Source of the DNA: Bacillota bacterium
GTDB taxonomy: Bacteria > Bacillota > Dethiobacteria > Dethiobacterales > Dethiobacteraceae
DNA: 52,843 nucleotides
Direction: 5' to 3'
Assembly (NCBI GenBank): GCA_012523945.1
Contig: JAAYSO010000055.1
Span: forward strand, 1 to 52,843
Shown here: one piece after another, positions 4,410 to 39,686 of the stretch
How positions within the stretch are numbered: the stretch's first letter is position 1
How the letters are laid out: each line of letters starts with the position of its first letter
The notes under the pieces: generated by a model
Told to the model about the DNA's origin: nothing
The model's database searches: none
Seen by the model: only the letters and a program-made list of their open reading frames with translations
Translations under genes and position numbers: made by a program

Positions 4410-4421
4410 TTTCCCACCTCT

Positions 4422-5135: not shown

Positions 5136-5136
5136 T

Positions 5137-5832
5137 TTAATCACCTGTACCTGTTATCCTGCCGTATAAAATGGCATTAACAATGAAAGATATCCCCAGA
5201 AGCACTAAACCCATAGCGATGGAGGTGGAGTAGTTTCCCATGCTATGGTTCATGGCAATAAAAGTTGTCATAACCCTGGTATGGTTTTTAATATTGCCTC
5301 CTACTATCATTACTGCACCAACTTCAGAGATGGCCCGGCCAAAGCCTGATGTTATGGCTACTAAAATATTGGCTCTCATCTCCTTGACTAAAATGAGCAA
5401 AGTATCCAGCTTGTTAGCACCCAAGGTCAGGCACATTTTCTCAACTTCTGTCCCTTTATCGCGGGAGCTGTTAAAAATAACACCCATGATAATAGGCAAA
5501 ACTAATAAAGTTTGTGCAATAATCATAGCAGCAGGAGTAAAGAGCAAGCGAAACTGCCCCAAAGGCCCCCTGCGGGCTAGAAATATCGTCACCACCAGCC
5601 CCACAACCACCGGCGGCAAACTCATGGCTGTATTCAAAAACCTGGCAAAAATTCTTTTTCCTTTAAAATCCTTTAAACCTAAAATAAAACCAAGCGGTAT
5701 ACCGATAAAAGCAGAAATGAGGGTAGAGGCAAAGGATACATACATAGATAAAGCAATAATTGTATAAATTTCCTGATCAAAGGATAGCAGCAACTTTATT
5801 GCATCTGAGATGCCTTCAAGTATATAACCCAT
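5137..5832 (-). CDS. tupB: Tungstate ABC transporter permease TupB
   Basis: 231-residue inner-membrane permease with about five hydrophobic segments. The ABC-permease coupling (EAA-type) region is visible at about residues 140-185 (TLGANKLDTLLILVKEMR followed by GRAISEVGAVMIVGG), the loop that docks on TupC. The GGNIKNHTRVMTTFIAM stretch is typical of TupB rather than ModB. The ATG has GGGAGGG before it. It lies between tupA and tupC; the stop overlaps the region where tupC translation begins, suggesting coupling. Confidence 0.93.
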   Translation of the reverse strand: MGYILEGISDAIKLLLSFDQEIYTIIALSMYVSFASTLISAFIGIPLGFILGLKDFKGKRIFARFLNTAMSLPPVVVGLVVTIFLARRGPLGQFRLLFTPAAMIIAQTLLVLPIIMGVIFNSSRDKGTEVEKMCLTLGANKLDTLLILVKEMRANILVAITSGFGRAISEVGAVMIVGGNIKNHTRVMTTFIAMNHSMGNYSTSIAMGLVLLGISFIVNAILYGRITGTGD

Positions 5833-5865
5833 TGCCCATACCCTCCCTTTGCAATTTTTTTCTGT

Positions 5866-6774
5866 TTATTTAGCGTTAGGAATGAAAAGTGGCTCACCAA
5901 ATTCTTCAACGCCATATTGACTGATCAATTCTTGCGTTTCCGCAGACAGCAGCCACTCTATAAAAGCTTGTGCCCCTTCAGCATTAATTTGCTCATTTTT
6001 CTCAGGATTGACGGCAATGACACCATATTGGTTAAATAATCTTTCATCACCTTCAGTAACAATGACTAGCTCCAGGTTGTCCCGCATGGAAAGATAAGTT
6101 GCCCTGTCGGATAAAGTATAACCCTGCATTTCATCAGCCATTTGCAGGACGTCCCCCATGCCTTTACCGGCGGAAACATACCATGCTCCCTCGGGCTCTA
6201 AACCGGCTTCTCCCCACAACTCCAATTCTTTCTTATGAGTACCGGAATCGTCACCCCGGGATACAAAAATATGTTCCCCTTCATGAATAGCATTAAAAGC
6301 ATCTACAATGTTGCTGTTGGCTTGCTCTTTTACCTTTGCCGGGTCTTCCGCCGGTCCCACCAGGATGTAATCATTATACATTACATCAAATCTTTCCAGT
6401 CCATGACCTTCAGCAACAAATTCCTCTTCACTGGCCTTGGCGTGGACTAAAAGCACGTCTGCTTCACCGTCTACTCCCATTTGCAAAGCTTTACCCGTTC
6501 CTACTGCTACCACTTTTACTTCGATGCCTGTTTTTTCCGTAAAATCGGGAAGAATAAAATCTAAAAGTCCACTGTTTTCTGTGGAGGTGGTGGTGGAAAG
6601 AATGATACTGCCACCTAATTTAGGCTCCTCTACTGTTCCCTGTTCTTCTTCTCCGGCATTTTCCTCATTAAGAGGTTCATCAGGCTGCGCGGGCTCTTTG
6701 GAACCACACCCTACGACAACTAGTGAGAAAATCAATAAAAGTATGAGCCCCAAGCTTAATTTTGTCTTTTTCAC
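5866..6774 (-). CDS. tupA: Tungstate-binding lipoprotein TupA
   Basis: Extracytoplasmic binding protein of 302 residues. A GTG start at 6774 has AAAGGAGAG before it and gives a classic lipoprotein signal: KK, a hydrophobic run, then the lipobox VVVGC, so the mature protein is anchored by that Cys. An acidic linker rich in Glu and Pro follows. The TTTSTENSGLLD motif near the start of the mature domain and SRGDDSGTHKKE further on are hallmarks of TupA and separate it from ModA. An in-frame ATG at 6933 would add 53 residues, but it lies inside the folded leader and would bury the signal peptide, so I reject it. First gene of the operon. Confidence 0.94.
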   Translation of the reverse strand: MKKTKLSLGLILLLIFSLVVVGCGSKEPAQPDEPLNEENAGEEEQGTVEEPKLGGSIILSTTTSTENSGLLDFILPDFTEKTGIEVKVVAVGTGKALQMGVDGEADVLLVHAKASEEEFVAEGHGLERFDVMYNDYILVGPAEDPAKVKEQANSNIVDAFNAIHEGEHIFVSRGDDSGTHKKELELWGEAGLEPEGAWYVSAGKGMGDVLQMADEMQGYTLSDRATYLSMRDNLELVIVTEGDERLFNQYGVIAVNPEKNEQINAEGAQAFIEWLLSAETQELISQYGVEEFGEPLFIPNAK

Positions 6775-6842
6775 ACCAATCTCTCCTTTGCTGCAATTAG
6801 TATCTGTGCAGGAAAAGGAAAGTTGTAATACCCAGAAAAACA

Positions 6843-6868
6843 AAAAAACATTCAAAGGAATGTTTTTT
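6843..6868 (-). terminator. Intrinsic terminator-like hairpin in the tupA leader
   Basis: On the minus strand an 11-bp AT-rich stem (AAAAAACATTC / GAATGTTTTTT, loop CTTT) is followed by a T-rich run. It lies between the folded aptamer-like element and the tupA start, the usual place for a riboswitch expression platform. Its stem is AT-rich, so strength is uncertain. Confidence 0.55.
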
Positions 6869-6876
6869 ATAAAAAC

Positions 6877-6974
6877 AATTTTCCTTTTCAAGCACGGAAG
6901 GCATAAAGATTTCTCTTTATACCCAGCGGTCAACCTTCATAGCGCGCGCCTTAGAATAGTTGACTCGGAAAATT
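6877..6974 (-). promoter_or_regulatory. Candidate Moco/Tuco-type riboswitch aptamer in the tup-moe-moa leader
   Basis: The minus strand folds into a closed domain. P1 is AATTTTCC (6974-6967) with GGAAAATT (6884-6877), perfect. An inner stem is GTCAAC (6964-6959) with GTTGAC (6934-6929), perfect. A 10-bp hairpin spans 6923-6900 and is capped by a GAAA tetraloop. Junction strands carry CCGAG, CCGCTGGG and GCCTTCCG. A promoter precedes it and a terminator-like hairpin follows. Molybdenum and tungsten cofactor riboswitches are known from the leaders of exactly these gene sets and contain a GNRA-capped arm. The assignment rests on context and shape; I could not align it to the family model. The 383-base gap between tupA and mog holds only this leader and two promoters. 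Confidence 0.62.
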
Positions 6975-6996
6975 TCTATGCATTTTTCACATCAAG

Positions 6997-7025
6997 AGTA
7001 TACCATATTTCCTATCGCAGAACAA
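6997..7025 (-). promoter_or_regulatory. Sigma-A promoter of the tup-moe-moa operon
   Basis: TTGTTC at 7025-7020, a 17-base spacer and TATACT at 7002-6997 on the minus strand. Transcription would start near 6990, just before the candidate riboswitch. Confidence 0.65.
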
Positions 7026-7052
7026 GATTTTCCCCTGCACTTAAGCGAGATG

Positions 7053-7081
7053 TTTAAAACACCTTCCGCTCGTGGTACAAT
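7053..7081 (+). promoter_or_regulatory. Probable sigma-A promoter of mog
   Basis: TTTAAA at 7053-7058, a 17-base spacer and TACAAT at 7076-7081, about 75 bases before the mog GTG. The -35 box is weak, the -10 good. Confidence 0.45.
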
Positions 7082-7157
7082 TAGAATAAACAAGGAGCAG
7101 ACAAACTTCACCATGTGATAAAACTTATTTTCAAGCAACCGACAAGGAGGTTTACAG

Positions 7158-7649
7158 GTGTTTAAAGTAGGCATCATAGTTGCCAGCGATAAAGGCGCTA
7201 AAGGTGAAAGGACTGATGAAAGCGGGAAGTTAATTGAGGAAATCATGACCGAAAACGGTTACAAAATTGAAAAAACCGCGATCCTCCCCGACGAAAGAGA
7301 AATACTGGCCCAAGCAATGCGAGAGATGTGTGATCAACTAAAACTGGATTTGCTTCTTACCAGCGGCGGCACCGGATTTTCACCACGGGACTGGACGCCG
7401 GAGGCCACACTGGATGTAATTGACAGGCTAGTCCCGGGCATCCCGGAAGCCATGAGAGCTTACAGTCTGAAAATTACCCCCATGGCCATGTTAAGCAGGG
7501 CAGTTGCCGGCATCAGAAAACAGACGTTAATTATAAATTTGCCCGGCAGTCCCAAAGCAGTCAAGGAAAACCTTGATTGCATCCTGCCGGCTTTACCGCA
7601 TGGATTGGAAGTTTTAAGAGGAACTGCCGGCGATTGTGCCAGGAAATAA
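7158..7649 (+). CDS. mog: MogA/MoaB-type molybdopterin adenylyltransferase
   Basis: 163 residues; the only plus-strand protein gene in the window. The family activates molybdopterin by adenylylation before MoeA inserts the metal. The signature loops are LTSGGTGFSPRDWTPEAT near residues 70-87 and INLPGSPKAVKEN near 130-142. The GTG start at 7158 has AAGGAGG seven bases upstream. It is divergent from the tup-moe-moa operon with its own probable promoter, so it can be expressed independently of the leader RNA. A strong terminator follows directly. Confidence 0.92.
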   Translation: MFKVGIIVASDKGAKGERTDESGKLIEEIMTENGYKIEKTAILPDEREILAQAMREMCDQLKLDLLLTSGGTGFSPRDWTPEATLDVIDRLVPGIPEAMRAYSLKITPMAMLSRAVAGIRKQTLIINLPGSPKAVKENLDCILPALPHGLEVLRGTAGDCARK

Positions 7650-7653
7650 ATGA

Positions 7654-7690
7654 AAGAGCCGTAAGCAAATGCTTACGGCTCTTATTTTTC
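7654..7690 (+). terminator. Rho-independent terminator of mog
   Basis: Perfect 13-bp stem (AAGAGCCGTAAGC / GCTTACGGCTCTT) with loop AAAT, followed on the plus strand by ATTTTTC. It sits just beyond the mog stop. Confidence 0.9.
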
Positions 7691-7694
7691 TTAA

Positions 7695-7770
7695 TGGTGG
7701 AGATGAGGGGAGTCGAACCCCTGGCCTCCTGAATGCCATTCAGGCGCTCTCCCAACTGAGCTACATCCCC
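7695..7770 (-). tRNA. tRNA-Ala, anticodon GGC
   Basis: 76 bases including an encoded CCA. Acceptor GGGGATG pairs with CATCTCC. D arm GCTCAGTTGGGAGAGC, anticodon stem CCTGA/TCAGG with loop ATGGCAT, and T arm CAGGGGTTCGACTCCCCT are all canonical. GGC at loop positions 34-36 reads GCC/GCU alanine codons. It lies downstream of rsfS on the same strand. Confidence 0.97.
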
Positions 7771-7845
7771 AAATACTCTTTTTTGCAGTGACAATGATTA
7801 TTATACCGGGTTTAACAGCCCTTGTCAACTTTTATTTGCTTCCTT

Positions 7846-8193
7846 TTAATGACTGTCAACTTTAGGGGCATGGGCCCAGAGACGCTCAAGGTTATAGAAA
7901 GATCTTTGTTCAGGTTGGAAAAGATGTACAACTACTGAACCGTAATCCAGTAAAACCCAAAGACCTTCTTCGTAGCCTTCTTGATGTAAAAGCGGAATGC
8001 CTGCTTCTTTTGTTTTTTCCAGGATGTAATCGGCAATGGCATGAACTTGTAGCTTGGTACTACCGGTGGCAATAATAAAATAATCTGCAATTAGTGACAC
8101 GGCACCTATTTGCAGCACCACCAGATCTACAGCCTTTTTCTCCTCCGCTGCAGTTTTAATCACTTTGACTAACCTTTGAACATCCTCGGTCAA
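7846..8193 (-). CDS. rsfS: RsfS, ribosomal silencing factor
   Basis: 115 residues, the usual size. RsfS binds ribosomal protein L14 and blocks joining of the subunits when nutrients are low. Conserved features are ADYFIIATG near residues 36-44, and EGYEEGLWVLLDYGSVVVHLF in two parts near 73-93, including the WVLLDYG core. The start is TTG at 8193, preceded by GGGGAGGGG. It lies 14 bases after the LCP-like gene; in relatives rsfS follows nadD and yqeK, as here except for inserted genes. Confidence 0.95.
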   Translation of the reverse strand: MTEDVQRLVKVIKTAAEEKKAVDLVVLQIGAVSLIADYFIIATGSTKLQVHAIADYILEKTKEAGIPLLHQEGYEEGLWVLLDYGSVVVHLFQPEQRSFYNLERLWAHAPKVDSH

Positions 8194-8207
8194 ACAGACC
8201 CCTCCCC

Positions 8208-9314
8208 TTATTCGTCAAGATGATAATTTTTTCCCACAATTACAGTTACCAGTACATCAGTCTCATTTATTTCTTCCTTTAACAACTGGGCGTTGGGCAC
8301 CAAAACGGCAACTTCCTTGGCTAAATCAACATTGGCAGTACGGCTAATAACTTGAGAGCGTTCATAATTAAAATTATCAGCATTGCCGGTTCTGATAATG
8401 GCAAAACCTTCACCTTCCAGCATTTCCGCCACTTCACCGGCAGCACCCGGCACACCGCAGCCATTTAATACTTCCACTGTAATCTGACTTTTGGGCAAGG
8501 CTGCTTCCGTACCGTCCAGCCAGATTGTCAGGGCCGGGACACTTTCCCTGTCTATGTGCCGGTAAATCTTCCCGTCCTGAATTTCTCCTTCCCCCGGTAA
8601 AGCCGATAACTGCATAGATTGACCGGCGGATAAACTGTTTTCAAGCGTTTTTAACATGCTTAAAGCTTCACGCCACGATAAATTTGTGGTAAAAACGGAA
8701 GCAAAGCGTTTAAAGTTAAGGAAATCCTTATAAAAACTACCCTGGTAAAGATAGTGGAGCATACCGGCCAAAACCTGCTCCGTATGAGCAAATGTTTTTT
8801 GCCCCGGCACCGCAGCGGCCGGAATTGCCTCGGCCAAAGGCTGCATCTCATCAGCCAGCTGAAACAGTTTAGATTCATTCACTTCTAAAAAAACATGAAT
8901 TTTAGTTTGCAAAAGTTCAGAGGCGGCATCAACCAATTTTTCCGCACCGCCCGCTGCATAAACTTCAGCAGCCGTTTGTAAATTATGTAGTTCTGAAACA
9001 ATGGCCACATCGGAGGGAATCTGCAAGAACCGGACTGATTTCCTGTCCCGCCTCAGCGCGGCAACAGCCACGGAAGTCAGTGCTTTTTCTTCCCCTTCAT
9101 TTTCTACTGTGTAGAGCAGAAGATGCACCAGTTCATCTTCTGCCGGCGGCAGTGCTTCAGTCCAGGCACTTGTATCCTGAATACTGTTTAAGGTTCCAAG
9201 AAAACGGGAGACAAATAAGAGCAGGACAATAAAAGCAAAAATGGCAAGCAAAAAGAGTAAACGGCCTACCTTCAGCTTGCGCCGTTTAGTCCTCACTCTG
9301 TAATACGCAGCCAA
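8208..9314 (-). CDS. Membrane-anchored, degenerate LCP domain with LytR C-terminal domain
   Basis: 368 residues. A basic N-terminus is followed by one membrane helix (about residues 18-40). Next comes a region resembling the LytR-CpsA-Psr (LCP) fold, then a LytR_C domain (about 275-365, starting ITVEVLNGCG). LCP enzymes attach teichoic acids or other polymers to peptidoglycan. Their catalytic signature IPRDT with nearby Arg residues is altered here to IPSDV, and the usual RSDT is not seen, so activity as a phosphotransferase is doubtful. TTG start with GGGAGGG before it. Between yqeK and rsfS, a position often held by an LCP gene in this group. Confidence 0.75.
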   Translation of the reverse strand: MAAYYRVRTKRRKLKVGRLLFLLAIFAFIVLLLFVSRFLGTLNSIQDTSAWTEALPPAEDELVHLLLYTVENEGEEKALTSVAVAALRRDRKSVRFLQIPSDVAIVSELHNLQTAAEVYAAGGAEKLVDAASELLQTKIHVFLEVNESKLFQLADEMQPLAEAIPAAAVPGQKTFAHTEQVLAGMLHYLYQGSFYKDFLNFKRFASVFTTNLSWREALSMLKTLENSLSAGQSMQLSALPGEGEIQDGKIYRHIDRESVPALTIWLDGTEAALPKSQITVEVLNGCGVPGAAGEVAEMLEGEGFAIIRTGNADNFNYERSQVISRTANVDLAKEVAVLVPNAQLLKEEINETDVLVTVIVGKNYHLDE

Positions 9315-9317
9315 GGC

Positions 9318-9893
9318 TTACCCTCCCTCTTTTGTCTTTTGCACCAACCAGTTCCAATACTTAACTGCTGAAGGATGGATAATCTGATTTTTGGCAAGTT
9401 GATAAGCAATGGAATTGGCTACAGTCATGCGCAGGGCCTTGGGGAAATCTTCCCGTGCCAAAGAACGCAGTTTTTCCACCTGCGGATAAGACCGGTTGGG
9501 CTCAATTTTATCGGCAAGATAAATAATTTGTGCCAAAACTGTCATGCCGGGAGAACCCAGAGTGTGATGAGCAATGGCTTTCAAAATCTCCTCATCTTCT
9601 ATACCCCACTGCTCTTTTGCCAGTACGGCACCTACCGGTGCATGCAAAAGAACCGGCTGCTCCAAACAATAATTATCAACGGCCAGCTCATGTTTTTGCG
9701 CAAAAGCCAATAAATCTTCTGCCGGCCACCCGCGGGCAGAATCATGCAGTAATCCGGCCAAACGAGCTTTTCGCTCATCGCAGCCTAAAATTTTCGCCAG
9801 TGCACCGGCAGTTTCTGCCGTGCCTAAAGCATGGGCCAATTGTTCAGAAGATAAAGTCTGCTCTAAATGCTGCACAATCCGGCGTTCCTGCAT
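9318..9893 (-). CDS. yqeK: YqeK, HD-domain Ap4A hydrolase
   Basis: 191 residues. YqeK proteins hydrolyse diadenosine tetraphosphate symmetrically to ADP. HD-domain metal ligands are visible: His near residue 28-30 region, LLHDSARGW near 47-55 (the HD pair), HAPVGA near 84-89, IAHHTLG near 106-112 and the ADKIEPNRSYP motif near 127-137, which is diagnostic for YqeK. Its gene normally adjoins nadD and rsfS; here a small RRM gene with its own terminator separates it from nadD. ATG start with a modest GGTGAT. Confidence 0.92.
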   Translation of the reverse strand: MQERRIVQHLEQTLSSEQLAHALGTAETAGALAKILGCDERKARLAGLLHDSARGWPAEDLLAFAQKHELAVDNYCLEQPVLLHAPVGAVLAKEQWGIEDEEILKAIAHHTLGSPGMTVLAQIIYLADKIEPNRSYPQVEKLRSLAREDFPKALRMTVANSIAYQLAKNQIIHPSAVKYWNWLVQKTKEGG

Positions 9894-9964
9894 AACATCA
9901 CCAAGTTACGCTTCGACAAAAAGGTAAGCTTTTCCTGCTGAATAATTCCCCTATCCGAAAATAA

Positions 9965-9984
9965 AAGGCAACACATGTTGCCTT
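9965..9984 (-). terminator. Terminator after the RRM gene
   Basis: 8-bp stem AAGGCAAC/GTTGCCTT with a four-base loop, followed on the minus strand by TTTATTTT. It separates the RRM gene from yqeK. Confidence 0.75.
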
Positions 9985-10002
9985 AAGTAAAATTGCCCTT
10001 AT

Positions 10003-10257
10003 CTATGATGATTCAGGACGGGGCTTTGCTTCATTTATTACTAATTTCCTGCCATCCAGCTCCACGCCGTTCATTTCTACCATTTTTTCTGCATCTTCAT
10101 CTGCCACTTCCACAAAGCCATACCCTCTGGAGCGACCTGTGCCCCGCTCTGTAATAATCCGAGCGCTGAAAACTTCACCCTGTTCACTAAAAAACGCTTT
10201 TAATTCTTCTTCTGTAGTAGACCAGGGGATATTGCCCACATAAAGAGTTTTTACCAA
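10003..10257 (-). CDS. Single-RRM RNA-binding protein
   Basis: 84 residues that are almost entirely one RNA-recognition motif. RNP2 is LYVGNI at residues 4-9 and RNP1 is RGYGFVEV at about 44-51, so the aromatic RNA-stacking residues Tyr and Phe are in place. Bacterial proteins of this type are best known from cyanobacteria, where they bind RNA in the cold or affect mRNA localisation; the role here is unknown. No glycine-rich tail: it ends in KPRPESS. TTG start at 10257 with GGAGGTGAG before it. It is inserted between nadD and yqeK and has its own terminator. Confidence 0.9.
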   Translation of the reverse strand: MVKTLYVGNIPWSTTEEELKAFFSEQGEVFSARIITERGTGRSRGYGFVEVADEDAEKMVEMNGVELDGRKLVINEAKPRPESS

Positions 10258-10320
10258 GAATACTCACCTCCACTTTCAAGATTACTATTCATAGTATCTG
10301 AAGAAGCAGAGGTTTTATAC

Positions 10321-10971
10321 TTAGCCGGAAAGATTATGGTAAAGTTTGTTCTTATAAATGTATTGCGTTACAGCATCAGTTGTCAGATATTTAATGGGTT
10401 TACCTGCAGAAACACGCTGCCTGATCATAGTTGAAGAGATTTGCATCCCGGGAATTTGCACAATGGAAATATTCTGCATTATTTCCGGGCAGCTTTCCCC
10501 GATAGTTTCTTTAAGTTTATGCAAGCTGTAACCAGGACGTGTAGCAGCAATAAAATGGCAAATAGAAAGCAGCTCTTTATAATCCTTCCAGGTAATTATC
10601 TCCATAATGGCGTCTGCCCCGGTAATAAAGTAGAGTTTTGTCTTACTGCCAAAATAATTGCTAAAAAAACGGATTGTGTCAATAGTGTACGATTTTCCCT
10701 CTTCCCGGTCTATTTCTACCCGGGATACAGCAAAAGAAGGATTATTAATTGTAGCCAACACAGTCATTAAGTAGCGATGTTCCGGATCTGTTACTTTTTC
10801 CTCTTCTTTATGCGGCGGACGTCCTGTAGGCACAAAAATAACTTTGTCTAAATTAAACTGAATACGAACCTCCTCTGCCGTAACCAAATGGCCCAGGTGG
10901 ATCGGATCGAATGTTCCACCCATGATTCCAATAGCGTTTTTCTTATCCCCTTTTGGCAGTTGTAAAGTCAT
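10321..10971 (-). CDS. nadD: NadD, nicotinate-mononucleotide adenylyltransferase
   Basis: Transfers AMP from ATP to nicotinate mononucleotide in NAD synthesis. Nucleotidyltransferase signature GGTFDPIHLGHL is near the start, FVPTGRPPHKE near residue 50 and ISSTMIRQR near 190. The family is about 190-215 residues. I choose the ATG at 10971, with GGGGTGG before it; an in-frame GTG at 10980 is the alternative. It follows obgE by 17 bases, so it is probably the last gene of the rplU-obgE-nadD transcript. Confidence 0.94.
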   Translation of the reverse strand: MTLQLPKGDKKNAIGIMGGTFDPIHLGHLVTAEEVRIQFNLDKVIFVPTGRPPHKEEEKVTDPEHRYLMTVLATINNPSFAVSRVEIDREEGKSYTIDTIRFFSNYFGSKTKLYFITGADAIMEIITWKDYKELLSICHFIAATRPGYSLHKLKETIGESCPEIMQNISIVQIPGMQISSTMIRQRVSAGKPIKYLTTDAVTQYIYKNKLYHNLSG

Positions 10972-10988
10972 GCCTTCCACCCCGTCAT

Positions 10989-12281
<1,293 letters not shown>

Positions 12282-30075: not shown

Positions 30076-32478
30076 TTAAGCAAGATAAGCATAAATGATG
30101 AGGAATAACAAAACAAGCACGATTGCCACTAAAAAGATATCAAAATAAAAGTTCATGCTTCTCCAGCCCGCCCACAGGCGCAACCTGTTCCAAAAGGAAA
30201 GTGTACGCGGACCGGAGCTTTCATACATGGTATTTAAAGATTCATCCAGATCAGAAGTTCTGTGCGCAATTTTTCTACCCACATTTCCGGAGAGAACATA
30301 AGCTTGGTTAAGGGATTTGTCGAGTTTGTCCGATCCTTCAGCCAGCCTGCGTGCCCCGGCAGCGGAAACAAGATAAGCTTCATTGAGTGAGCGGTCAAAT
30401 TTTTCCGTACTGTTTGCCAGCTTCCGGGCCCCCTTGGCGGAAGTTTCATACACCCGGTTCAGTGAGCGGTCAAATTTTCCCGTCCCGTCAACCAGTTTAC
30501 GTGCACCGCCGGCGGAAGTCAGGTATGCTTGGTTTAAAGCTTTGTCAAACTGCTCTGATCTCTCCACCAAAGCCATGCCCAGTCCACCGGAACTTTCATA
30601 AGTTGTATTCAAAGCTGCATCTAAACGACCAAAAAACAGGCATAATTTCCTGGCCGTTGCGGATAGATCCAGATAAACCTGATTCAAAGCACGGTCAAAG
30701 ACTGTACCGGCCTGGGCAAATGTTTTTTGGACAAAACGGGCAGCCGGCAGGTAGAATAAATATTCCACACTGAGCCATTTGGGGAACTGTAAGGTAAAGA
30801 AACCCGAACGGTCAAGGAGAGCAAATAAAATGACGGCCATGATAACCACTACCGCACTGCCCTGCAGATCCGGCAGGTTCCAAACATTGAGCTCAAATAA
30901 ATGTTCTACCATGTGTCCGTCATAAGTAAACCACTGCATGGCCGGGATGATGATTTTCTTTAACAGGAAATGCGGAAAAAGACCGATGGCAAGAATTATA
31001 GCGCCAAAGATACTTAAGACCGTGTAGACAGGCCAGGTAAAACTATAGTCCAACTTGGCGAATTTCTCCGGCATTTCACCTAAAAAGAGGCCGCGGAACA
31101 GTTTGGCAAAATAACAAAGCGTCATGGCGCTGGTAAGCATAAAAATTTTTTCCGCCAGCATTAACAGGGACGAATTACCGTGTGTAGCCGCCTCCACAAT
31201 GGCATGGTGCAGTAAAGTTTTACTGACGTAGCCGTTAAAGCCGGGAATACCACCAATACCGGCGTAGGCAATTAAAAAGATTACCATGATAAAAGGAACT
31301 TTTTGCCGCAAGCCACCCAGCACCCGGATATCCAGTTCATGAGTTACCATATAAATTGATCCCACCAGTAAAAAGAAACCGGCTTTAAAAAAGGCATGAT
31401 TAATAATATGGTAAAGGGCACCGGCAAAACCCATGGCACCCTCGGCCCCCAGGTATGCTGCCACTCCCATCCCCATGAGAATATAGCCCATTTGCGAGAC
31501 GGAACTGTACGCCAGAATCTTTTTGGCGCCTGTGGATAAAAGCGCCATAAAAGCACCCAAGAACATGGTCACAATCCCGATCCAGATAATCAGATAGCCA
31601 ATCTCCATGGACGGGAGCATAGTTACAGTCTCCGGCACCTGCGCCGGCGTAAAAATCATGCCGACAACACGAAAAATCCCGTAGGCACCTGTTTTTATCA
31701 TTAAAGCCGAAAGTAAGGCACTGGCCGGCGAAGGTGCTACCGGGTGCGCCTTGGGCAGCCAGATGTGTAAAGGAATCATACCGGCTTTAATGCCAAACCC
31801 GACAATGAAGAGTAGCATCACCACATAAGGATTCAGAGCGCTTTGCGCGATGAGATCATAAAGAGGCTTAATTGCCGCCGTGCCAATCCCGGCATAAAGG
31901 AGGAAAATCCCCATCAAAATCACTAGTCCTCCGGCAACACTCAAATAGAGCATCACACCGCCGGCATGCATGGCATCCGGCGTTTGTTCGTGAATCACTA
32001 AAACATAAGAGAAAAAAGTCATCATTTCAAAAAATAAAAAGAGAGAGACCAAATCACCGGAAAGCACTACCCCCAGGCAACTGCCCAGTGTCGCCAGGAG
32101 AAAGACAAAAAAGCGGGTTTGGGCATGTTCATGGGCCATGTAAGCTGTGGCATGCAAAGTGGCTAGAAGCCAAATCAGACTCATCAAAGCAGCAAACACA
32201 AAGCCAAAAAGATCTACCCGCAAAAGGAGCCCCAGCTGCATAATGCCCGGCAGCTCAAACTGCAACGGCCTTTGCAGTACTGACGGCAGCATCAGCATGA
32301 CGATCACAAGCGTCAGCAGTGCCGTCAGCACAGCCAGGCTGTCCCGCCATTTTCCGGCCCAGCGTTCCGCACCCAGTACCAATAATGACCCTATAAGCGG
32401 CACAGCAACTGCGGCCGGCGGCAAAAGAGAAGAGATGGATTCTATTGTGGCCATATCCTGTGCAGCCATAAAAAACAT
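30076..32478 (-). CDS. Antiporter-like proton/sodium-pumping subunit (NuoL/M, MrpD family) with 25-residue repeats at the C-terminus
   Basis: 800 residues, about 300 more than a standard MrpD/NuoM. Residues 1-510 are the antiporter-like core of about 14 helices. It keeps the key Glu in FFEMMTFFSYVLVIHE and Lys in GFGIKAGMIPLHIWLPKAHPV, needed for ion translocation. One more helix lies near 545-560. Residues 594-755 are six and a half tandem 25-residue units with pattern FD-x-x-LN-x-x-Y-x-x-S-x-x-x-ARKL. A final membrane helix (about 778-798) ends the chain. NuoL also has a long amphipathic lateral helix followed by a last membrane helix, so the repeats may be an equivalent; that is inference. 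Five bases after the second antiporter gene. Confidence 0.88.
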   Translation of the reverse strand: MFFMAAQDMATIESISSLLPPAAVAVPLIGSLLVLGAERWAGKWRDSLAVLTALLTLVIVMLMLPSVLQRPLQFELPGIMQLGLLLRVDLFGFVFAALMSLIWLLATLHATAYMAHEHAQTRFFVFLLATLGSCLGVVLSGDLVSLFLFFEMMTFFSYVLVIHEQTPDAMHAGGVMLYLSVAGGLVILMGIFLLYAGIGTAAIKPLYDLIAQSALNPYVVMLLFIVGFGIKAGMIPLHIWLPKAHPVAPSPASALLSALMIKTGAYGIFRVVGMIFTPAQVPETVTMLPSMEIGYLIIWIGIVTMFLGAFMALLSTGAKKILAYSSVSQMGYILMGMGVAAYLGAEGAMGFAGALYHIINHAFFKAGFFLLVGSIYMVTHELDIRVLGGLRQKVPFIMVIFLIAYAGIGGIPGFNGYVSKTLLHHAIVEAATHGNSSLLMLAEKIFMLTSAMTLCYFAKLFRGLFLGEMPEKFAKLDYSFTWPVYTVLSIFGAIILAIGLFPHFLLKKIIIPAMQWFTYDGHMVEHLFELNVWNLPDLQGSAVVVIMAVILFALLDRSGFFTLQFPKWLSVEYLFYLPAARFVQKTFAQAGTVFDRALNQVYLDLSATARKLCLFFGRLDAALNTTYESSGGLGMALVERSEQFDKALNQAYLTSAGGARKLVDGTGKFDRSLNRVYETSAKGARKLANSTEKFDRSLNEAYLVSAAGARRLAEGSDKLDKSLNQAYVLSGNVGRKIAHRTSDLDESLNTMYESSGPRTLSFWNRLRLWAGWRSMNFYFDIFLVAIVLVLLFLIIYAYLA
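30214..30699 (-). repeat. Tandem 75-base coding repeats (25 residues each) in the antiporter gene
   Basis: Codes residues 594-755. Six full units and half a seventh; the central four are most alike (FDKALNQAY, FDRSLNRVY, FDRSLNEAY, LDKSLNQAY). Twenty-five residues equal seven alpha-helical turns, so one long amphipathic helix would show the same residues on one face in every unit. Confidence 0.9.
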
Positions 32479-32483
32479 AGTAA

Positions 32484-33968
32484 TTAAAAGCCTCCCCGGA
32501 ATAAAAACTCAGCCGCCCTGCGAGAAAGATCAAAGGGAATATTCCAAGGCATCAGACCGAATAAAAGTGTACAAAAAGCGATGACAACTATGGGTACCAG
32601 CATTTTAGAAGGCGCCTCGTCAATTTTAAGCGGTTCGCCCTCACCTTCTGCTTCCCGCCCAAAGAAGGCATTAATAATGATGGGCAAGTAGTAAAGCCCG
32701 TTCAATAAACTACTAATGAGTAAAACCACCACATAGTAAGGCTGGCGCGCATCAAGGGCCCCTAAAGCAAGCGTCCACTTGCTGACAAACCCGTTCAGGG
32801 GAGGAATACCCACCATGGCCAGGGCCGCCACTGTAAAAGCAGCCATGGTCACCGGCATCTGCCGGCCGATTCCGCCCAAATCCTTGATTTTACGCTTTCC
32901 TGTTTTAAGAATAATGGCACCGGCTGCTAAAAAGAGAGTACTTTTCATGGTGGCGTGACTGAAAATGTGGAAGATATCCCCAAGCAGAGCCCGTTCACTT
33001 AGAATAGTCATACCCAGTAAAACATATCCCATTTGCCCGATACTGGAATAGGCCAGACGGCGTTTCAGATCCTCCTGAGTTAAAGCCACAGCCGAACCTA
33101 AAAGGATGGAAATTACGGCTAAAACTGCCAAGATTAAGATCCAGCCTGTTTCCTGCAAGAGCTGCATACCATAAACATGAAAAATTACCCGCAATAAACC
33201 GTAAGCTCCTGTTTTCAGCATAATCCCCGATAATAAGGCACTGGCAGGCGAAGGCGCCACCGGGTGGGCATCAGGTAGCCAGACATGTAGCGGGAACATC
33301 CCGGCTTTCATGCCAAAACCGACAAGGTAAGCCAAAAAGGCCACCAACGCCAGTGTTGACGGTTCCCGGATTAAAACCCCGGCACCCAGGGATACCGATC
33401 CGGCCAGTTCAAAAGTAATGATAATACCGAAAAAGAGTGCCAGACCGCCGATAATAGTCATAATTAAATATTTATAGCCTGAACGCAGGGCTTCCACCGT
33501 CTCCTCGTGGATAACAAGCACATAAGAAGCCAGTGACATTAACTCAAAAAAGACAAAAAGCGTAAAGAAATCCCCGGCTAAAAACAGACCGATACAACCG
33601 GCCAAAGTCACCATCAACACCGGATAGTAACGGTTGCCGCCATGTTCATGGCGCATATAGTCCAGCGAATAGATAGTTGCCAGCATCCAGATAAAAGAAG
33701 ACAGGATTGACAGCGAGAAACTTAAAATATCCACACGGAAAGAAACTACTAAATTGGGCAGCAAAGAAAACAGCTTTACTTCAATGATCTCTCCGGCCAG
33801 AATATAAGGAAACAGCAACACTACCGACAGAAAAGTAATGACGGATGTAGCTACAGATAAGCCGTTACGAAGTTTTTCTGATCGTTTCTGTGCAAAGTAA
33901 ATAACAAAAGTCATAACAATCGGAAACATAGCAATCCAGACCGGCAAAATTTGTTTAAAGATTTCCAC
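32484..33968 (-). CDS. Antiporter-like proton/sodium-pumping subunit (MrpD/NuoM/NuoN family)
   Basis: 494 residues, about 14 membrane helices, normal length for the family. The essential Glu is in VFFELMSLASYVLVIHEE near residue 140. The Lys residues lie in GFGMKAGMFPLHVWLPDAHP near 220 and GIMLKTGAY near 250. It moves protons or sodium when joined to a redox module or other Mrp subunits. GTG start with AAGGAG. First gene of a two-gene unit with its own promoter and structured leader, next to rnfB. No MrpA, B, C, E, F or G and no Nuo redox subunits are in the window, so the partner complex is not shown. Confidence 0.9.
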   Translation of the reverse strand: MEIFKQILPVWIAMFPIVMTFVIYFAQKRSEKLRNGLSVATSVITFLSVVLLFPYILAGEIIEVKLFSLLPNLVVSFRVDILSFSLSILSSFIWMLATIYSLDYMRHEHGGNRYYPVLMVTLAGCIGLFLAGDFFTLFVFFELMSLASYVLVIHEETVEALRSGYKYLIMTIIGGLALFFGIIITFELAGSVSLGAGVLIREPSTLALVAFLAYLVGFGMKAGMFPLHVWLPDAHPVAPSPASALLSGIMLKTGAYGLLRVIFHVYGMQLLQETGWILILAVLAVISILLGSAVALTQEDLKRRLAYSSIGQMGYVLLGMTILSERALLGDIFHIFSHATMKSTLFLAAGAIILKTGKRKIKDLGGIGRQMPVTMAAFTVAALAMVGIPPLNGFVSKWTLALGALDARQPYYVVVLLISSLLNGLYYLPIIINAFFGREAEGEGEPLKIDEAPSKMLVPIVVIAFCTLLFGLMPWNIPFDLSRRAAEFLFRGGF

Positions 33969-34270: not shown

Positions 34271-34302
34271 AAAACGGTGCGTTTTTATTTTCGCACCGTT
34301 TT
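34271..34302 (-). terminator. Terminator of the rnf operon
   Basis: Perfect 11-bp stem AAAACGGTGCG/CGCACCGTTTT with a ten-base loop, followed by TT. It begins six bases after the rnfB stop and separates rnf from the antiporter pair. Confidence 0.85.
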
Positions 34303-34307
34303 CCGTA

Positions 34308-35090
34308 CTAGATAATAGTATTTTGCGGGCAGACTTCCACACAAGTGCCACAATTTGTACAAAGGCTGTAATCAATCACTGCCACGTTATTTACCATACT
34401 AATGGCGTTTTCAGGACATTTTTTCACGCACAGGGTGCAGGCAATACATCCCCGGCTGCAAACTTCACGTACCTGCTTGCCTTTATCCTGGTTCCGGCAA
34501 CTTACGTGATGTTTCTTTGTTTCCGGGACAAGCTCAAGCACCTGACGCGGGCATTCTTTCACACAAATACTGCAGCCTATACACAAATCTTTATCAACTA
34601 CCGGCAGGCCGTTTTCTCCCATAGAAATAGCATCTGTGGGGCAAACACGGACACAGTTGCCCAGACCCACACAGCCAAAGCTGCAGGCTATGGGGCCGCC
34701 GCCAAACATCAGTGCCGCCCTGCAATCCCGTGCTCCGTCATAAATATGTTTGACTTTAACAGTATTGCAGTCGCCGACACATTTAAGCTGGGCTACCTGG
34801 CGCTCCATGTCAACGGGCATATCGGCACCCAAAATTTCTGCAATCTTGGCGGCCACTTCCGCCCCGGCGGGTGTACAGCCGGTAACAGGAGCGTTGCCGG
34901 TCACAACTTCTTCGGCAAACTGATCACAGCCGGCACAACCGCAAGCACCACAGTTGGCGCCTGCCAGTAGCTCGCGCACTTCTTCAACTTTCGGATCAAC
35001 TTCTACGGCAAATTTCTGGGAAGCATAAGCCAAAGCTCCACCAAAAATGAGACCTAATCCTGCCAGAGTGATTACTGCCGCTACAATCAT
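34308..35090 (-). CDS. rnfB: RnfB, iron-sulfur subunit of the Rnf complex
   Basis: 260 residues. N-terminal membrane helix (about 3-22), a Cys cluster domain (NCGACGCAGC near 46-55 with a further Cys at about 72), then four ferredoxin-type motifs (CVGLGNCVRVCP, CIGCSICVKECP, CIACTLCVKKCP, CTNCGTCVEVCP). The multi-cluster form is typical of anaerobic Clostridia, in which RnfB is the port for reduced ferredoxin. Electrons go on through the membrane to NAD at RnfC while sodium or protons are exported. Last gene of rnfCDGEAB; AGGAGG before the ATG. Confidence 0.95.
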   Translation of the reverse strand: MIVAAVITLAGLGLIFGGALAYASQKFAVEVDPKVEEVRELLAGANCGACGCAGCDQFAEEVVTGNAPVTGCTPAGAEVAAKIAEILGADMPVDMERQVAQLKCVGDCNTVKVKHIYDGARDCRAALMFGGGPIACSFGCVGLGNCVRVCPTDAISMGENGLPVVDKDLCIGCSICVKECPRQVLELVPETKKHHVSCRNQDKGKQVREVCSRGCIACTLCVKKCPENAISMVNNVAVIDYSLCTNCGTCVEVCPQNTII

Positions 35091-35103
35091 ATAGTCTCGC
35101 CTC

Positions 35104-35682
35104 CTACATCATGCCTTGAAATCCCATAAAGGCGATGGAAAGGATTCCGGCAATAATTAATGCAAGGGAAACACCGCGAAAATGTTTCGGGATGGCAACC
35201 AATTCCAAACGTTCCCGGATACCGGCCAAAATAACCAGAGCCAGCGTAAAACCAAGGGCAGCTGCCACTCCGAAAATTACAGCTTCCAGGAGATTATGTT
35301 CCAGCTGAACATTTAACAGTGCTACCCCCAGCACTGCACAGTTGGTGGTAATCAAAGGCAGAAAAATACCCAGAGCCTGGTATAAAACAGGACTGATTTT
35401 GCGTATCACCAGCTCCACAAACTGTACCAGTGCGGCAATAACCAGAATAAACACGATTGTACGCAAGTATTCCAGTTGGAACGCTTGTAAAATATAATAT
35501 TCCAACAGCCAGGTGACTAAAGAAGCCAACCCCATAACAAAAGTTACGGCCATACCCATGCCAATGGATGTATCCACCTTTTTGGAAACACCTAGGAACG
35601 GGCAGATGCCGAGGAACCTTGTCAACACAAAATTGTTAACGAAAATGGCACCAAAGATAATAGCCAATATACTCGTCATCAT
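35104..35682 (-). CDS. rnfA: RnfA, membrane subunit of the Rnf complex
   Basis: 192 residues, six membrane helices. Cys27 (GICPFLG) and Cys115 (TTNCAVLG) match the residues that, with two from RnfE, hold the membrane iron-sulfur cluster in Rnf/Nqr. The start is one of two adjacent ATG codons. Between rnfE and rnfB. Confidence 0.95.
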
Positions 35683-35692
35683 CTACCCTCCT

Positions 35693-36292
35693 CTATTCCA
35701 GTCTGAACTTTTTAAAAAGCATATTTACCAATGCCATCATTAACCCATAGACCAGGAAACCACCGGCGGGAGAACCGAAAATTTGAAACGGCTCATAACC
35801 GGCACCCATAATAGTGACGCCAAAAATTGTGCCGGCGGAAAGTATCTCCCGGATTGAGCCCATGATGGTTAAAGACAAGGTAAAGCCTAGCCCCATGCCG
35901 AGACCGTCGGCAACGGAGGCAGCAATGGGGTTTTTCGAAGCAAAGGCTTCTGCCCGCCCCAGGATAATACAGTTAACAACAATGAGCGGAATAAAAATCC
36001 CCAAAGCGGAGTGCAGTTCCGGCGTAAAAGCATTGAGTAGCATATCAACCACGGTCACAAAGGTGGCGATAATGACAATATAGGCCGGAATACGGATTTT
36101 ATCCGGAATAAACTTCCGCAGAAGAGAAATCACAAAGTTTGACGCAATTAATACGGCTGCCGTGGAAAGTCCCATACCTAAACCGTTTACAGCCAAGGTG
36201 GTGACGGCAAGTGTGGGGCAAGTGCCCAGCACCAGGCGGAAGGTCGGGTTTTCTTTAAAGATGCCTTTGGTTACTTCTTTCATCAAACTCAT
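35693..36292 (-). CDS. rnfE: RnfE, membrane subunit of the Rnf complex
   Basis: 199 residues, six membrane helices, homologous to RnfA with opposite orientation. Cys25 (GTCPTLAV) and Cys108 (VVNCIILG) complete the shared membrane cluster. I choose the ATG at 36292, with GGAGGTGA before it; an ATG at 36307 overlapping the rnfG stop is the alternative. Confidence 0.95.
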   Translation of the reverse strand: MSLMKEVTKGIFKENPTFRLVLGTCPTLAVTTLAVNGLGMGLSTAAVLIASNFVISLLRKFIPDKIRIPAYIVIIATFVTVVDMLLNAFTPELHSALGIFIPLIVVNCIILGRAEAFASKNPIAASVADGLGMGLGFTLSLTIMGSIREILSAGTIFGVTIMGAGYEPFQIFGSPAGGFLVYGLMMALVNMLFKKFRLE

Positions 36293-36306
36293 ATCGTCAC
36301 CTCCCA

Positions 36307-37413
36307 TTATTGCTGCAGTGCATTTTTCACAGCATCCATGATGCCTTTACTGCTGAAAGTGGCACCACTGGCTGCATCAACTTGCACTGACTGCTCCTCT
36401 ATAATCCGTTTGGGTACTTGGGCTTTTGCCTGATTAAAGTATTCAGGCGTATCTTCACCGGCCAGAACTTCAATATTGGTAATTTTGCCGCCTTCAACCG
36501 TTACTTCTACTTTAATACCGGGCTTTAAGCCTTTACCTTCACCGGTGTAAACACCATCAGGAATGGCGGAAATATCAAGCTCACGTTCAACAGGTGCACC
36601 TGCTGCTCCCTGCAAGGCATTGCGCACAGCTTCCATAATACCTTTACTGCTGAAGGTAGCACCACTGGCCGCATCAACTTCAAGCTCCTGTTGCTCGACA
36701 ATCCGTTTGGGAATTTGAGCTTTTGCCTGATTGAAGTATTCAGGCGTATCTTCACCGGCCAGAACTTCAATATTGGTAATTTTGCCGCCTTCAACGGTTA
36801 CTTCTACTTTAATGCCGGGCATTAAGCCTTTACCTTCACCGGTATAGACACCATCCGGGATTGTAGTAATATCAATTTCTGCCGGGCCCTGGATAATGTC
36901 CCCGCCAAAGGCAAGTAGAATTGCTTCCATTTCTGCTTGAACACCGTTTTCCATGGCTACACTGGTGACGGTTGCACCGGATATATTATCAACATCAAAG
37001 TCATCATCGACAGTTTTACCTACAAACTGCTGGCGGTATGACTCATCCTCAATCTTTGAACCCAAACCTGCAGTTTCGCTGTGAGAAATAATGGTTAAAC
37101 TAACCAACTTCCCTTCGCCGTCGATGGCCAGGTTAAAACGTATCTCACCACCGTAACCGGAAGTTTTTCCTTCAGCAAGAATTCCCACCAGGTTGCCTTG
37201 GTCATCGTAGCCCACTGTGGCCGTACGACCGTCAGCTTCCAAATCTTCAAGTTTCTCTGCTATGGGGAAAAGTCTTTGCAAAAGTTCAATTTTTTCTTTT
37301 TGAATGCGTTCTTCAATGATTTGCGAGGTCACATCGTTTGTATAAGCCAAAACGCCTGCAGAAATGGCGCAGATCACCATCAAAATCACAGCTAAACGGA
37401 TTACTTCTTTCAT
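36307..37413 (-). CDS. rnfG: RnfG with three flavin-binding domains
   Basis: 368 residues, about twice the usual RnfG. Residues 1-175 are a normal RnfG: N-terminal helix, then an FMN-binding domain whose SGAT motif gives Thr148 as covalent flavin site. Residues 182-268 and 281-368 are two further FMN_bind domains, nearly identical to each other, each with DAASGATFSS (Thr253 and Thr352). Extra FMN_bind domains of this kind are known from flavin-rich extracellular electron-transfer proteins and are loaded by ApbE, which is not in the window. The start overlaps the rnfD stop. The added domains would lie outside the membrane. Confidence 0.94.
   Translation of the reverse strand: MKEVIRLAVILMVICAISAGVLAYTNDVTSQIIEERIQKEKIELLQRLFPIAEKLEDLEADGRTATVGYDDQGNLVGILAEGKTSGYGGEIRFNLAIDGEGKLVSLTIISHSETAGLGSKIEDESYRQQFVGKTVDDDFDVDNISGATVTSVAMENGVQAEMEAILLAFGGDIIQGPAEIDITTIPDGVYTGEGKGLMPGIKVEVTVEGGKITNIEVLAGEDTPEYFNQAKAQIPKRIVEQQELEVDAASGATFSSKGIMEAVRNALQGAAGAPVERELDISAIPDGVYTGEGKGLKPGIKVEVTVEGGKITNIEVLAGEDTPEYFNQAKAQVPKRIIEEQSVQVDAASGATFSSKGIMDAVKNALQQ
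36316..36870 (-). repeat. Intragenic duplication coding the two extra FMN-binding domains of RnfG
   Basis: Units at about 36610-36870 and 36316-36573. They differ at few positions: more than 40 consecutive residues are identical except one Met/Lys change. The high DNA similarity suggests a recent duplication or gene conversion. Confidence 0.88.
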
Positions 37414-38327
37414 TACTTGGCCACCTCCCCGTACTTTCTGGGTAGGGTCAGGTTATCAATTAAAGGCGTTACCGCATTCATCAGCAAAATGGCAAAAGTA
37501 ACACCCTCCGGATAACTGCCGTAAAAGCGGACCAGCATGGTCATTAAGCCGCAACCAATACCAAAGATCAGCTGTCCTTTCGGTGTTACCGGAGAAGTTA
37601 CCATATCAGTAGCCATAAAGAAGGCACCAAGGACCACACCGCCGGCTAAAACATGGAACAGACCGGCGCTTAAAGAGATGCCTTCGCCGCCCAGCAGTGT
37701 CCCCATGACGAAAACAACCAGGATATAACCGCCGGGAATGCGCCAGTTAATATGGCCTTTATAAAACAACCAAATAGCACCTAAAAGCAAAGCAAAGGCA
37801 CTGGTTTCCCCTAAAGAACCGGCAACGGAACCAACGAAAAGCTTTACAAAGTCAGGTGTTCCTGCTGAAGCCAAAGGTGTAGCCGCGGAAACCAGATCTA
37901 CCGGGCTTAACCAGCTTGTCATATGGCCGGTCCAGGAAATCATCAATACGGCTCTGGCAACTAAAGCCGGGTTGAAAATATTGTTGCCCAGGCCGCCAAA
38001 AGCTTGTTTCCCAATACCTATAGCAACTACGCCGCCAATGATGCATAGCCACCAAGGCGGTGCAGGAGGTAAAGTCATAGCTAAAAGCAAACCGGTTACA
38101 GCCGCACTGCCATCACCAAAAATATCTTTTTTGCGCAAGATAATGGCTTCAGTGAGCATGGAAGATAACATGCAAAGAACTATGGTGATAAGAGCACGAA
38201 AGCCGAAAAAGATAATGGCAGCCAAAACGGCAGGAAATAACGCCACAAGCACATCAGTCATCACACTGCGAATACTTTCTGCACTCTTTAAGTGTGGTGA
38301 GGACGAGACAATTAATTTGTTTTCCAT
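37413..38327 (-). CDS. rnfD: RnfD, membrane flavoprotein of the Rnf complex
   Basis: 304 residues, about nine membrane helices. The covalent flavin site is Thr150-152 region in LVSAATPLA, a variant of the family SGATPL. Also NPALVARAVL and TDMVTSPVTPKG. The ATG at 38327 has AAAGGAGGG before it; a TTG two codons earlier is less likely. It overlaps rnfG by one base. Confidence 0.95.
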   Translation of the reverse strand: MENKLIVSSSPHLKSAESIRSVMTDVLVALFPAVLAAIIFFGFRALITIVLCMLSSMLTEAIILRKKDIFGDGSAAVTGLLLAMTLPPAPPWWLCIIGGVVAIGIGKQAFGGLGNNIFNPALVARAVLMISWTGHMTSWLSPVDLVSAATPLASAGTPDFVKLFVGSVAGSLGETSAFALLLGAIWLFYKGHINWRIPGGYILVVFVMGTLLGGEGISLSAGLFHVLAGGVVLGAFFMATDMVTSPVTPKGQLIFGIGCGLMTMLVRFYGSYPEGVTFAILLMNAVTPLIDNLTLPRKYGEVAK

Positions 38328-38354
38328 AAGCAATCCCTCCTTTGCCCTTACCGG

Positions 38355-39686
38355 TTATTTAGCCGCCGCACGGCGTTTAGCCGCTATTTCACTTTTTGCC
38401 ATCCGGATCCATTGTGTGAGCGGGCGTTTAGCCGGGCAGATATAAGAGCAGCAGCCACACTCAATACAATCCATGGCATCATACTGCTCCGCCCTATCAT
38501 ACAAGCCCTGCTCCACGGCTGAACCGATAAACAGCGGCATAATACTTACCGGGCAAGCTTCCACACATTTTGCACATTTAATGCACGGTCCAATATCATC
38601 AACTGTAACATCCTCATCCGTGAGACACAAAATTCCTGAAGTGCCTTTGGTTACCGGTAAATTCTCCGGTCCCGGCTGGGCAAATCCCATCATGGGCCCA
38701 CCGAGAATGAGCTTTTTCAAATTAGGTTTAAAACCGCCGCACTGTTCAATGACGTCTTCAAGCGGTGTACCTATACGCACAAGCATATTTTTTGGTTCGT
38801 TAATTCCCGAACCTGTGATTGTGACAATTCTCTCAATTAAAGGCAGGCCTTTGCGCACGGCATCAGCGATGGCAATGCAAGTACCTACGTTTTGCACAAT
38901 ACAACCCACATGGGCAGGTAAACCGCCGGAAGGAACTTCCCTGCCGGTAAAAACTTTGATTAATTGCTTTTCCGCACCTTGCGGGTACTTGGTAGGCAGT
39001 GCGCGCACTTCAATTCTCGGATCATCTGCAGCCGCTTTTGTCAGTGCTTCCACGGCATCAGGCTTATTATCTTCAATGCCAATACAGCCTTTTTCCGCTC
39101 CGACAATTTTCATAACCAGCTGCAAACCAACAATGAGATCATCCGGCCTTTCCAACATGGCACGGTGATCACTGGTTAAATACGGTTCACACTCAGCACC
39201 GTTCACCAGCACATAATCAATTTTGTTTTCCGGTGGCGGTGAAATTTTGACATGTGTCGGGAAAGTTGCTCCTCCCATCCCCACAATGCCTGCTTCCCGC
39301 ACAAGTTGCTTCAACTCATCAGCGTTCAGTTTTTCCCAATCGGGATTAGGCTTCACCGATTCATGCCAGGTATCCTGAAAATCGTTTTCGATGAAAATAG
39401 CCTCCACAGTGCCGCCGGGAGCAGAATTACATGTACCGATTTTTATTACTTTTCCTGAAACACTGGAATGCACCGGCGCTGAAACAAAACCCTTGCTATC
39501 GCCTATTTTTTGCCCCATTTTTACTTCATCACCAACGGCCACGAGCGGCTCACAGGGCGCACCTATATGCTGAGACAAGGGAATTATTGCTACAGCCGGA
39601 GGATTAGCAGGTACAACAGGCTTCTTCTCCGTAGCACTCTTGTGGTCTCCGGGATGAACGCCTCCCTTAAACGTTTTTAAACTCAT
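38355..39686 (-). CDS. rnfC: RnfC, NADH-binding subunit of the Rnf complex
   Basis: 443 residues. An N-terminal biotinyl-like domain is followed by the NADH/FMN Rossmann region (GIVGMGGATFPTHVK near residue 130-145). Two 4Fe-4S motifs are near the C-terminus: CIKCAKCVEACP and CIECGCCSYICP. It reduces NAD at the cytoplasmic face. First gene of the rnf operon, with AAAGGGGTG before the ATG. Length is normal. Confidence 0.96.
   Translation of the reverse strand: MSLKTFKGGVHPGDHKSATEKKPVVPANPPAVAIIPLSQHIGAPCEPLVAVGDEVKMGQKIGDSKGFVSAPVHSSVSGKVIKIGTCNSAPGGTVEAIFIENDFQDTWHESVKPNPDWEKLNADELKQLVREAGIVGMGGATFPTHVKISPPPENKIDYVLVNGAECEPYLTSDHRAMLERPDDLIVGLQLVMKIVGAEKGCIGIEDNKPDAVEALTKAAADDPRIEVRALPTKYPQGAEKQLIKVFTGREVPSGGLPAHVGCIVQNVGTCIAIADAVRKGLPLIERIVTITGSGINEPKNMLVRIGTPLEDVIEQCGGFKPNLKKLILGGPMMGFAQPGPENLPVTKGTSGILCLTDEDVTVDDIGPCIKCAKCVEACPVSIMPLFIGSAVEQGLYDRAEQYDAMDCIECGCCSYICPAKRPLTQWIRMAKSEIAAKRRAAAK

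Follow-up and report, generated by a model that had tools for sequence, protein, structure and literature searches.

A tandem 25-residue repeat at the predicted lateral-helix position of an antiporter-like subunit encoded beside rnf

The lateral helix (HL) of complex I-type pumps was first read as a piston, the role once proposed for it in NuoL, and later as a clamp, and its length is said to correspond to the number of pump subunits. Mutants of E. coli NuoL point to a clamp and not to a piston (PMC3274701). The TM15-TM16 element of MBS, Mrp and complex I holds the antiporter subunits together, and its length reportedly corresponds to how many of them there are; in MBS, HL and TM16 hold MbsH and MbsH' together, and the HL of MbsH' is part of the dimer interface (PMC7684303). 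The locus described here lies on a 52,843-nucleotide contig of a Bacillota bacterium of the family Dethiobacteraceae (JAAYSO010000055.1, assembly GCA_012523945.1), taken whole and referred to as the window. One of its genes encodes an 800-aa antiporter-like subunit of the MbsH'/NuoL/MrpA type (ANT2; 30076-32478, minus strand) with a tail of tandem 25-residue repeats. The original prediction was that these could be a lengthened or rebuilt NuoL helix spanning neighbouring subunits, or a cytoplasmic tether.

The subunit and its repeat array

The assignment of ANT2 to the antiporter-like pump subunits is well supported. PF00361 (Proton_antipo_M) matches residues 140-431 at 3.7e-54, and the only other Pfam match is a weak one to PF00662. 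The closest PDB entries are 6cfw_H (MbhH, 2e-52) and 6u8y_X (MbsH', 3e-44) by sequence and MrpA (7qru_A, 2.5e-27 with Foldseek) by fold, and the Foldseek alignments of ANT2 with MrpA, NuoL and MbsH' extend across about 600-700 columns. The core fold is shared with MbsH' of the Pyrococcus MBS and with MrpA (PDB 6u8y_X, 7qru_A, 6z16_A), in which HL lies between TMH15 and TMH16. As predicted by AlphaFold (799 residues, shallow alignment), ANT2 has the H'-type layout of core, TM15, linker and last membrane anchor, with a pLDDT of about 90 in the core and low confidence in the terminal helix. Unlike MrpA, it has no C-terminal domain (MbhD/DUF4040-like) after TM16, ending at the membrane helix. Nor does it pass as NuoL of complex I, scoring 172.7 bits against a cut-off of 407.5 for TIGR01974, and no match over the cut-off was found in the window's genome to the L subunit or to other Nuo subunits. 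The only other antiporter-like protein found in that genome is the MrpD-like neighbour ANT1 (32484-33968, minus strand), identified by domain matches and by its ortholog in relatives.

Helices of the ANT2 model occupy residues 534-556 (TM15), 570-627, 631-753 and 773-798 (the last TM helix). The repeats had been placed between the core and a final membrane helix, and this is confirmed: the array precedes the last predicted TM helix, which is kept in relatives, and lies after TM15, that is, in the predicted HL position. NuoL/ND5 of complex I likewise has its linker in this place, followed by a terminal anchor helix. As in MbsH' and MrpA, there is an extra TM helix on each side of the linker, and relatives of ANT2 have Mrp-type neighbours; unlike theirs, the linker is about 200 residues long and built of 25-residue repeats. 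Ahead of the repeats lies a segment bearing a P-x-W-L-S-V-E motif conserved in relatives (residues 559-593; 30700-30804, minus strand), and from W-L-S-V-E to the start of unit 1 there are 26 residues in 43 of 47 relatives. The terminal helix (about residues 774-799; 30082-30159, minus strand) is preceded by N-x-x-F-D and is conserved in relatives as WNIKNLNFDS followed by the TM segment.

Six full units follow one another at residues 594-618, 619-643, 644-668, 669-693, 694-718 and 719-743 (30250-30699, minus strand). A degenerate seventh (residues 744-768; 30175-30249, minus strand), consisting of LDESLNTMYESSG and then linker, matches in its first half only and is scored as a unit (WIN_G000_u7) by a position matrix covering 65 proteins; the earlier count of six and a half was right. 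The mean BLOSUM62 self-match of ANT2 is 1.80, 1.98 and 1.58 at lags of 25, 50 and 75, against at most 0.18 for the best lag in 1000 shuffles. Pairwise identity among units 1-6 is 24-60% in protein and 37-65% in DNA, values low enough for Tandem Repeats Finder to have missed the array. The consensus is F-D-x-x-L-(N/D)-x-A-Y-x-x-(S/T)-(G/A)-x-x-A-R-K-L-A-x-x-T-x-x, with a hydrophobic seam at positions 1, 5, 8, 12, 16, 19 and 23 (65 proteins). The most conserved positions, over 291 units from several families, are Y9 (96%), D2 (95%), D/N6 (93%) and G13 (84%). Unit 1 is more hydrophobic than the inner units and has Cys at position 20 in 82%; the inner units are polar, 36% of their residues being charged. 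The dominant hydrophobic harmonic is number 7, a period of 3.57 that stays in phase through the units, as expected from the seven turns per unit and the constant hydrophobic face originally proposed, and it supports a helix with one face.

The linker is predicted as a near-continuous helix. The pLDDT of the tail is only about 40-55 in both models, so that continuity is not established; a continuous helix over residues 570-753 would span about 275 Å. Folding of the tail alone, with three tail rows from the window and related loci, returned helix, as had been anticipated, but less continuous (mean pLDDT 46) and uninformative beyond that. No known repeat domain was found for the tail above noise in Pfam, NCBIfam or PADLOC, and PDB profiles matched generic helical proteins only (best E 0.0056). 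Neither Pfam nor NCBIfam has a model of the tail, and no description of the repeat itself turned up in the open-access literature searched, in keeping with the original prediction.

Variation among relatives

The repeat characterises the family rather than this one genome, and some further families within the phylum share it. A profile built from the tail (A1) matches 66 of the 98 class genomes and, in a phylum-wide sample of 399 genomes, 31; some of these matches are weak. Counting of units in related genomes, suggested at the outset, gave 291 in 65 proteins and up to 7 per protein, at a matrix threshold of 7, the highest score in 30,720 core positions of the same proteins being at most 0.09. 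Intervals between units are exactly 25 residues in 228 of 230 cases, both exceptions being isolated edge matches. Within a genus the number shifts by whole units (6, 6 and 7 in g5; 5, 6 and 6 in g9, by the matrix), and adjacent units in some relatives are 91-96% identical in DNA. Set against the antiporter gene count of each locus, unit number gave a rho of -0.15 (p 0.31) over 47 loci that are not phylogenetically independent and were not corrected for relatedness. Linker length in these loci thus does not track pump number, unlike the published rule for the HL of MbsH' and MrpA (PMC7684303), and the idea of a ruler for the number of pump subunits was rejected.

In most relatives the locus reads rnfCDGEAB-(moaC)-mrpE-mrpF-mrpG-mbhD-mbhE-mnhB-mrpC-mrpD-ANT1-ANT2(repeats)-apbE-hepI-maf-radC-mreB, that is, Rnf, then a full MBH/MBS-type Mrp module, then the flavin transferase ApbE. 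The joining of rnf, complete MBH/MBS-type Mrp and apbE is seen in many anaerobic Firmicutes (L096, positions 3732-12022; L098, L099, L101, L102 and others). This conserved locus may represent an Rnf-Mrp functional unit; a search of the open-access literature gave no account of Rnf and Mrp as a joint complex. In 'Candidatus Contubernalis alkaliaceticus', genes of a multisubunit Na+/H+ antiporter (HUE98_01720-01765) come after rnf (HUE98_01685-01710) (PMC10608574), and, judging from gene order and class, this is very probably the locus of G022/L096. The paper lists the antiporter genes beside rnf, and its passages on those genes mention neither repeats nor a joint Rnf-Mrp locus (PMC10608574).

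The window holds a reduced form. Upstream of the antiporter pair lies rnfC-D-G-E-A-B (34308-39686, minus strand; B, A, E, G and D by Pfam, rnfC by position and conserved cluster order). RnfG (36307-37413, minus strand) contains an FMN-binding domain three times, with near-identity between the second and third copies; its length in relatives, L096 and L102 among them, is about 275-283 aa. After rnfB come ANT1 and ANT2 alone, as they do in G001, G008 and G009 and, outside the class, in G068. The small Mrp subunits B, C, E, F and G, present in most relatives, are absent from the window locus; MnhB was found nowhere in the window's genome (G000), which has two PF00361 proteins. In the assembly of this genome (96.7% complete) the Mrp partners found elsewhere appear to be missing, and of the Mrp part it has apparently kept ANT1 and ANT2 only. 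The same two-subunit remnant (30076-33968 in the window) is kept without small Mrp subunits in G001, G008 and G009. A strong terminator-like hairpin with a U-run directly follows rnfB (34271-34302, within the segment 34255-34320; -21.2 kcal/mol, z -4.83), and a promoter-like TTGACA-17-TAAACT stands at 34169-34141 on the minus strand, between this hairpin and ANT1. Together they suggest that ANT1-ANT2 may be transcribed separately from rnf in this genome.

Repeats are also found without rnf, beside an Mrp module with no rnf genes (L142) or with a single RnfG-like gene only (L103, L109). Orphan repeat-bearing copies of ANT2 exist in G010 and G003, genomes that also have full modules; at L095 (2727-5108) and L137 (3-2159) such copies lie away from rnf and Mrp genes.

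The array has been lost in one lineage, and in two genomes of one family it sits on a swapped core. In G007 and G011, sister taxa with a support of 100/100, the gene next to rnfB encodes an ANT2 core that stops short of the repeats and TM16, and ANT1 is missing; each genome has one antiporter-like protein. This co-loss of ANT1 with the repeats and the last helix is one event. Both assemblies have a gap over rnfDGEA, between rnfC and rnfB, and because they break there the absence of ANT1 elsewhere in the genomes is less sure than its absence at the site. The tails of G004 and G006 share 65-67% identity with those of G003 and G012 from the same family, whereas the cores share only 26-30%; the cores of G004 and G006 are 51-56% identical to the cores of other families, whose tails reach only 32-41%. 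The core was swapped and the tail kept, and the tail is therefore a module remaining with the local complex, the behaviour to be expected of a contact element. In genus g28, ANT2 of the ancestral type has no more than two scored units, against 4-5 in a second copy, which has a swapped core. Tandem copies occur in one genus (L126, L134, L146, L147, L148), one with few or no units being followed by one with a different core and 4-5.

Possible roles of the linker

The best reading, because of the HL position, the co-loss with ANT1 and the core swap, is a length-tolerant cytoplasmic helical staple in the place of HL, and we put its probability at slightly under one half (0.48). The repeats would be an expanded TM15-TM16 linker of an H'-type subunit, where MrpA, MbsH' and NuoL carry HL, forming a long helix whose cytoplasmic location is suggested by the topology of those three proteins. 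Unit 1, being hydrophobic, may rest on the membrane or on a neighbour as HL does. The later, hydrophilic units would form a rod with one hydrophobic seam and an invariant stripe (D2, D/N6, Y9, G13) for protein contact, and rod and TM16 would together act as a staple between the distal pump subunit and its partner or partners. Length would be tolerated in whole-unit steps, making the element neither a ruler nor a piston. The predicted helices at 570-627 and 631-753, the in-phase hydrophobic period and the clamp role concluded for NuoL HL also speak for it. Counted against the staple are the low pLDDT of the tail, the absence of HL homology, the polar inner units, the single co-loss with its assembly gaps and the orphan ANT2 copies in G010 and G003.

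Such a staple would not simply be a longer NuoL helix, because the inner units are polar, the length is excessive and whole-unit changes are tolerated. No sequence homology was detected between the ANT2 linker and NuoL HL (hhalign, 30 NuoL tails, probability 0.06%), the inner units are much more polar (mean 0.06 versus 0.54 for HL), and the repeats are spaced at 25 residues whereas HL of Firmicutes NuoL is spaced, by eye, at about 22. For a genome with two antiporter subunits, some 275 Å of helix also seems excessive. The original notion of a lengthened helix spanning neighbouring subunits is not supported by these comparisons, nor by unit number, which bears no relation to pump number. Descent of the unit from NuoL HL was considered and rejected: FDWLYDKVFVKP of E. 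coli NuoL resembles a unit by eye, hhalign gives no support and the unit matrix scores NuoL at -23.

The other half of the original prediction, a tether, is possible, if tentative. In this reading the hydrophilic units would reach out into the cytoplasm as a coiled coil or antiparallel hairpin, linking two complexes to each other or binding Rnf (RnfB/RnfC) or some other protein. By homology both ends of the array are anchored in the membrane on one side, making a hairpin topologically natural, and the polar inner units with their invariant stripe, the varying length and a tail that follows family and not core are consistent with such a contact. So are the part played by the HL of MbsH' in the MBS dimer interface (PMC7684303) and the position of the locus next to rnf in most genomes, but a tether specific to Rnf is weakened by the repeat loci that lack rnf neighbours or have a single RnfG-like gene. 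Moreover, the array has no conserved loop in its middle where a hairpin would turn.

Slippage or unequal recombination might instead have multiplied units in a length-tolerant linker with little function of its own. The near-identical adjacent units, the changes of number within a genus and the loss of the whole array in one lineage point in this direction. Mostly neutral expansion is nonetheless unlikely given that D2, D/N6, Y9 and G13 have been held over units of several families, that no indel breaks the 25-residue spacing, that the tail outlasted the replacement of its core and that two-thirds of the genomes of the class (66 of 98) have the array.

It is also improbable that the rod acts as coupling strap in a redox-driven pump made from Rnf and complex I-type antiporter subunits; in the window's genome, where no further antiporter-like subunit and no MnhB were found, ANT1-ANT2 would then be strapped to Rnf, with unit number adjusting the geometry. 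A coupling rod or piston passing movement between pump subunits, in the older sense given to NuoL HL, has the HL position and the predicted helix in its favour and is very hard to credit when close relatives differ by whole units, length is without link to pump number and the NuoL experiments argue against one (PMC3274701).

The window alone could not reveal that the repeat occurs widely, normally as part of a whole Mrp module, or that the tail behaves as a module separable from the core. The repeat-bearing subunit is a new variation on the known H'-type subunit, and dozens of genomes hold a natural experiment at the HL position, with about 3 to 7 whole repeats, a deletion and a core swap in which the tail was kept. 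The clamp, ruler and piston ideas thereby become testable by comparative genomics and simple unit deletions. The widespread Rnf-Mrp locus of anaerobic Firmicutes also deserves notice, as does the way it has shrunk to a remnant of two subunits.
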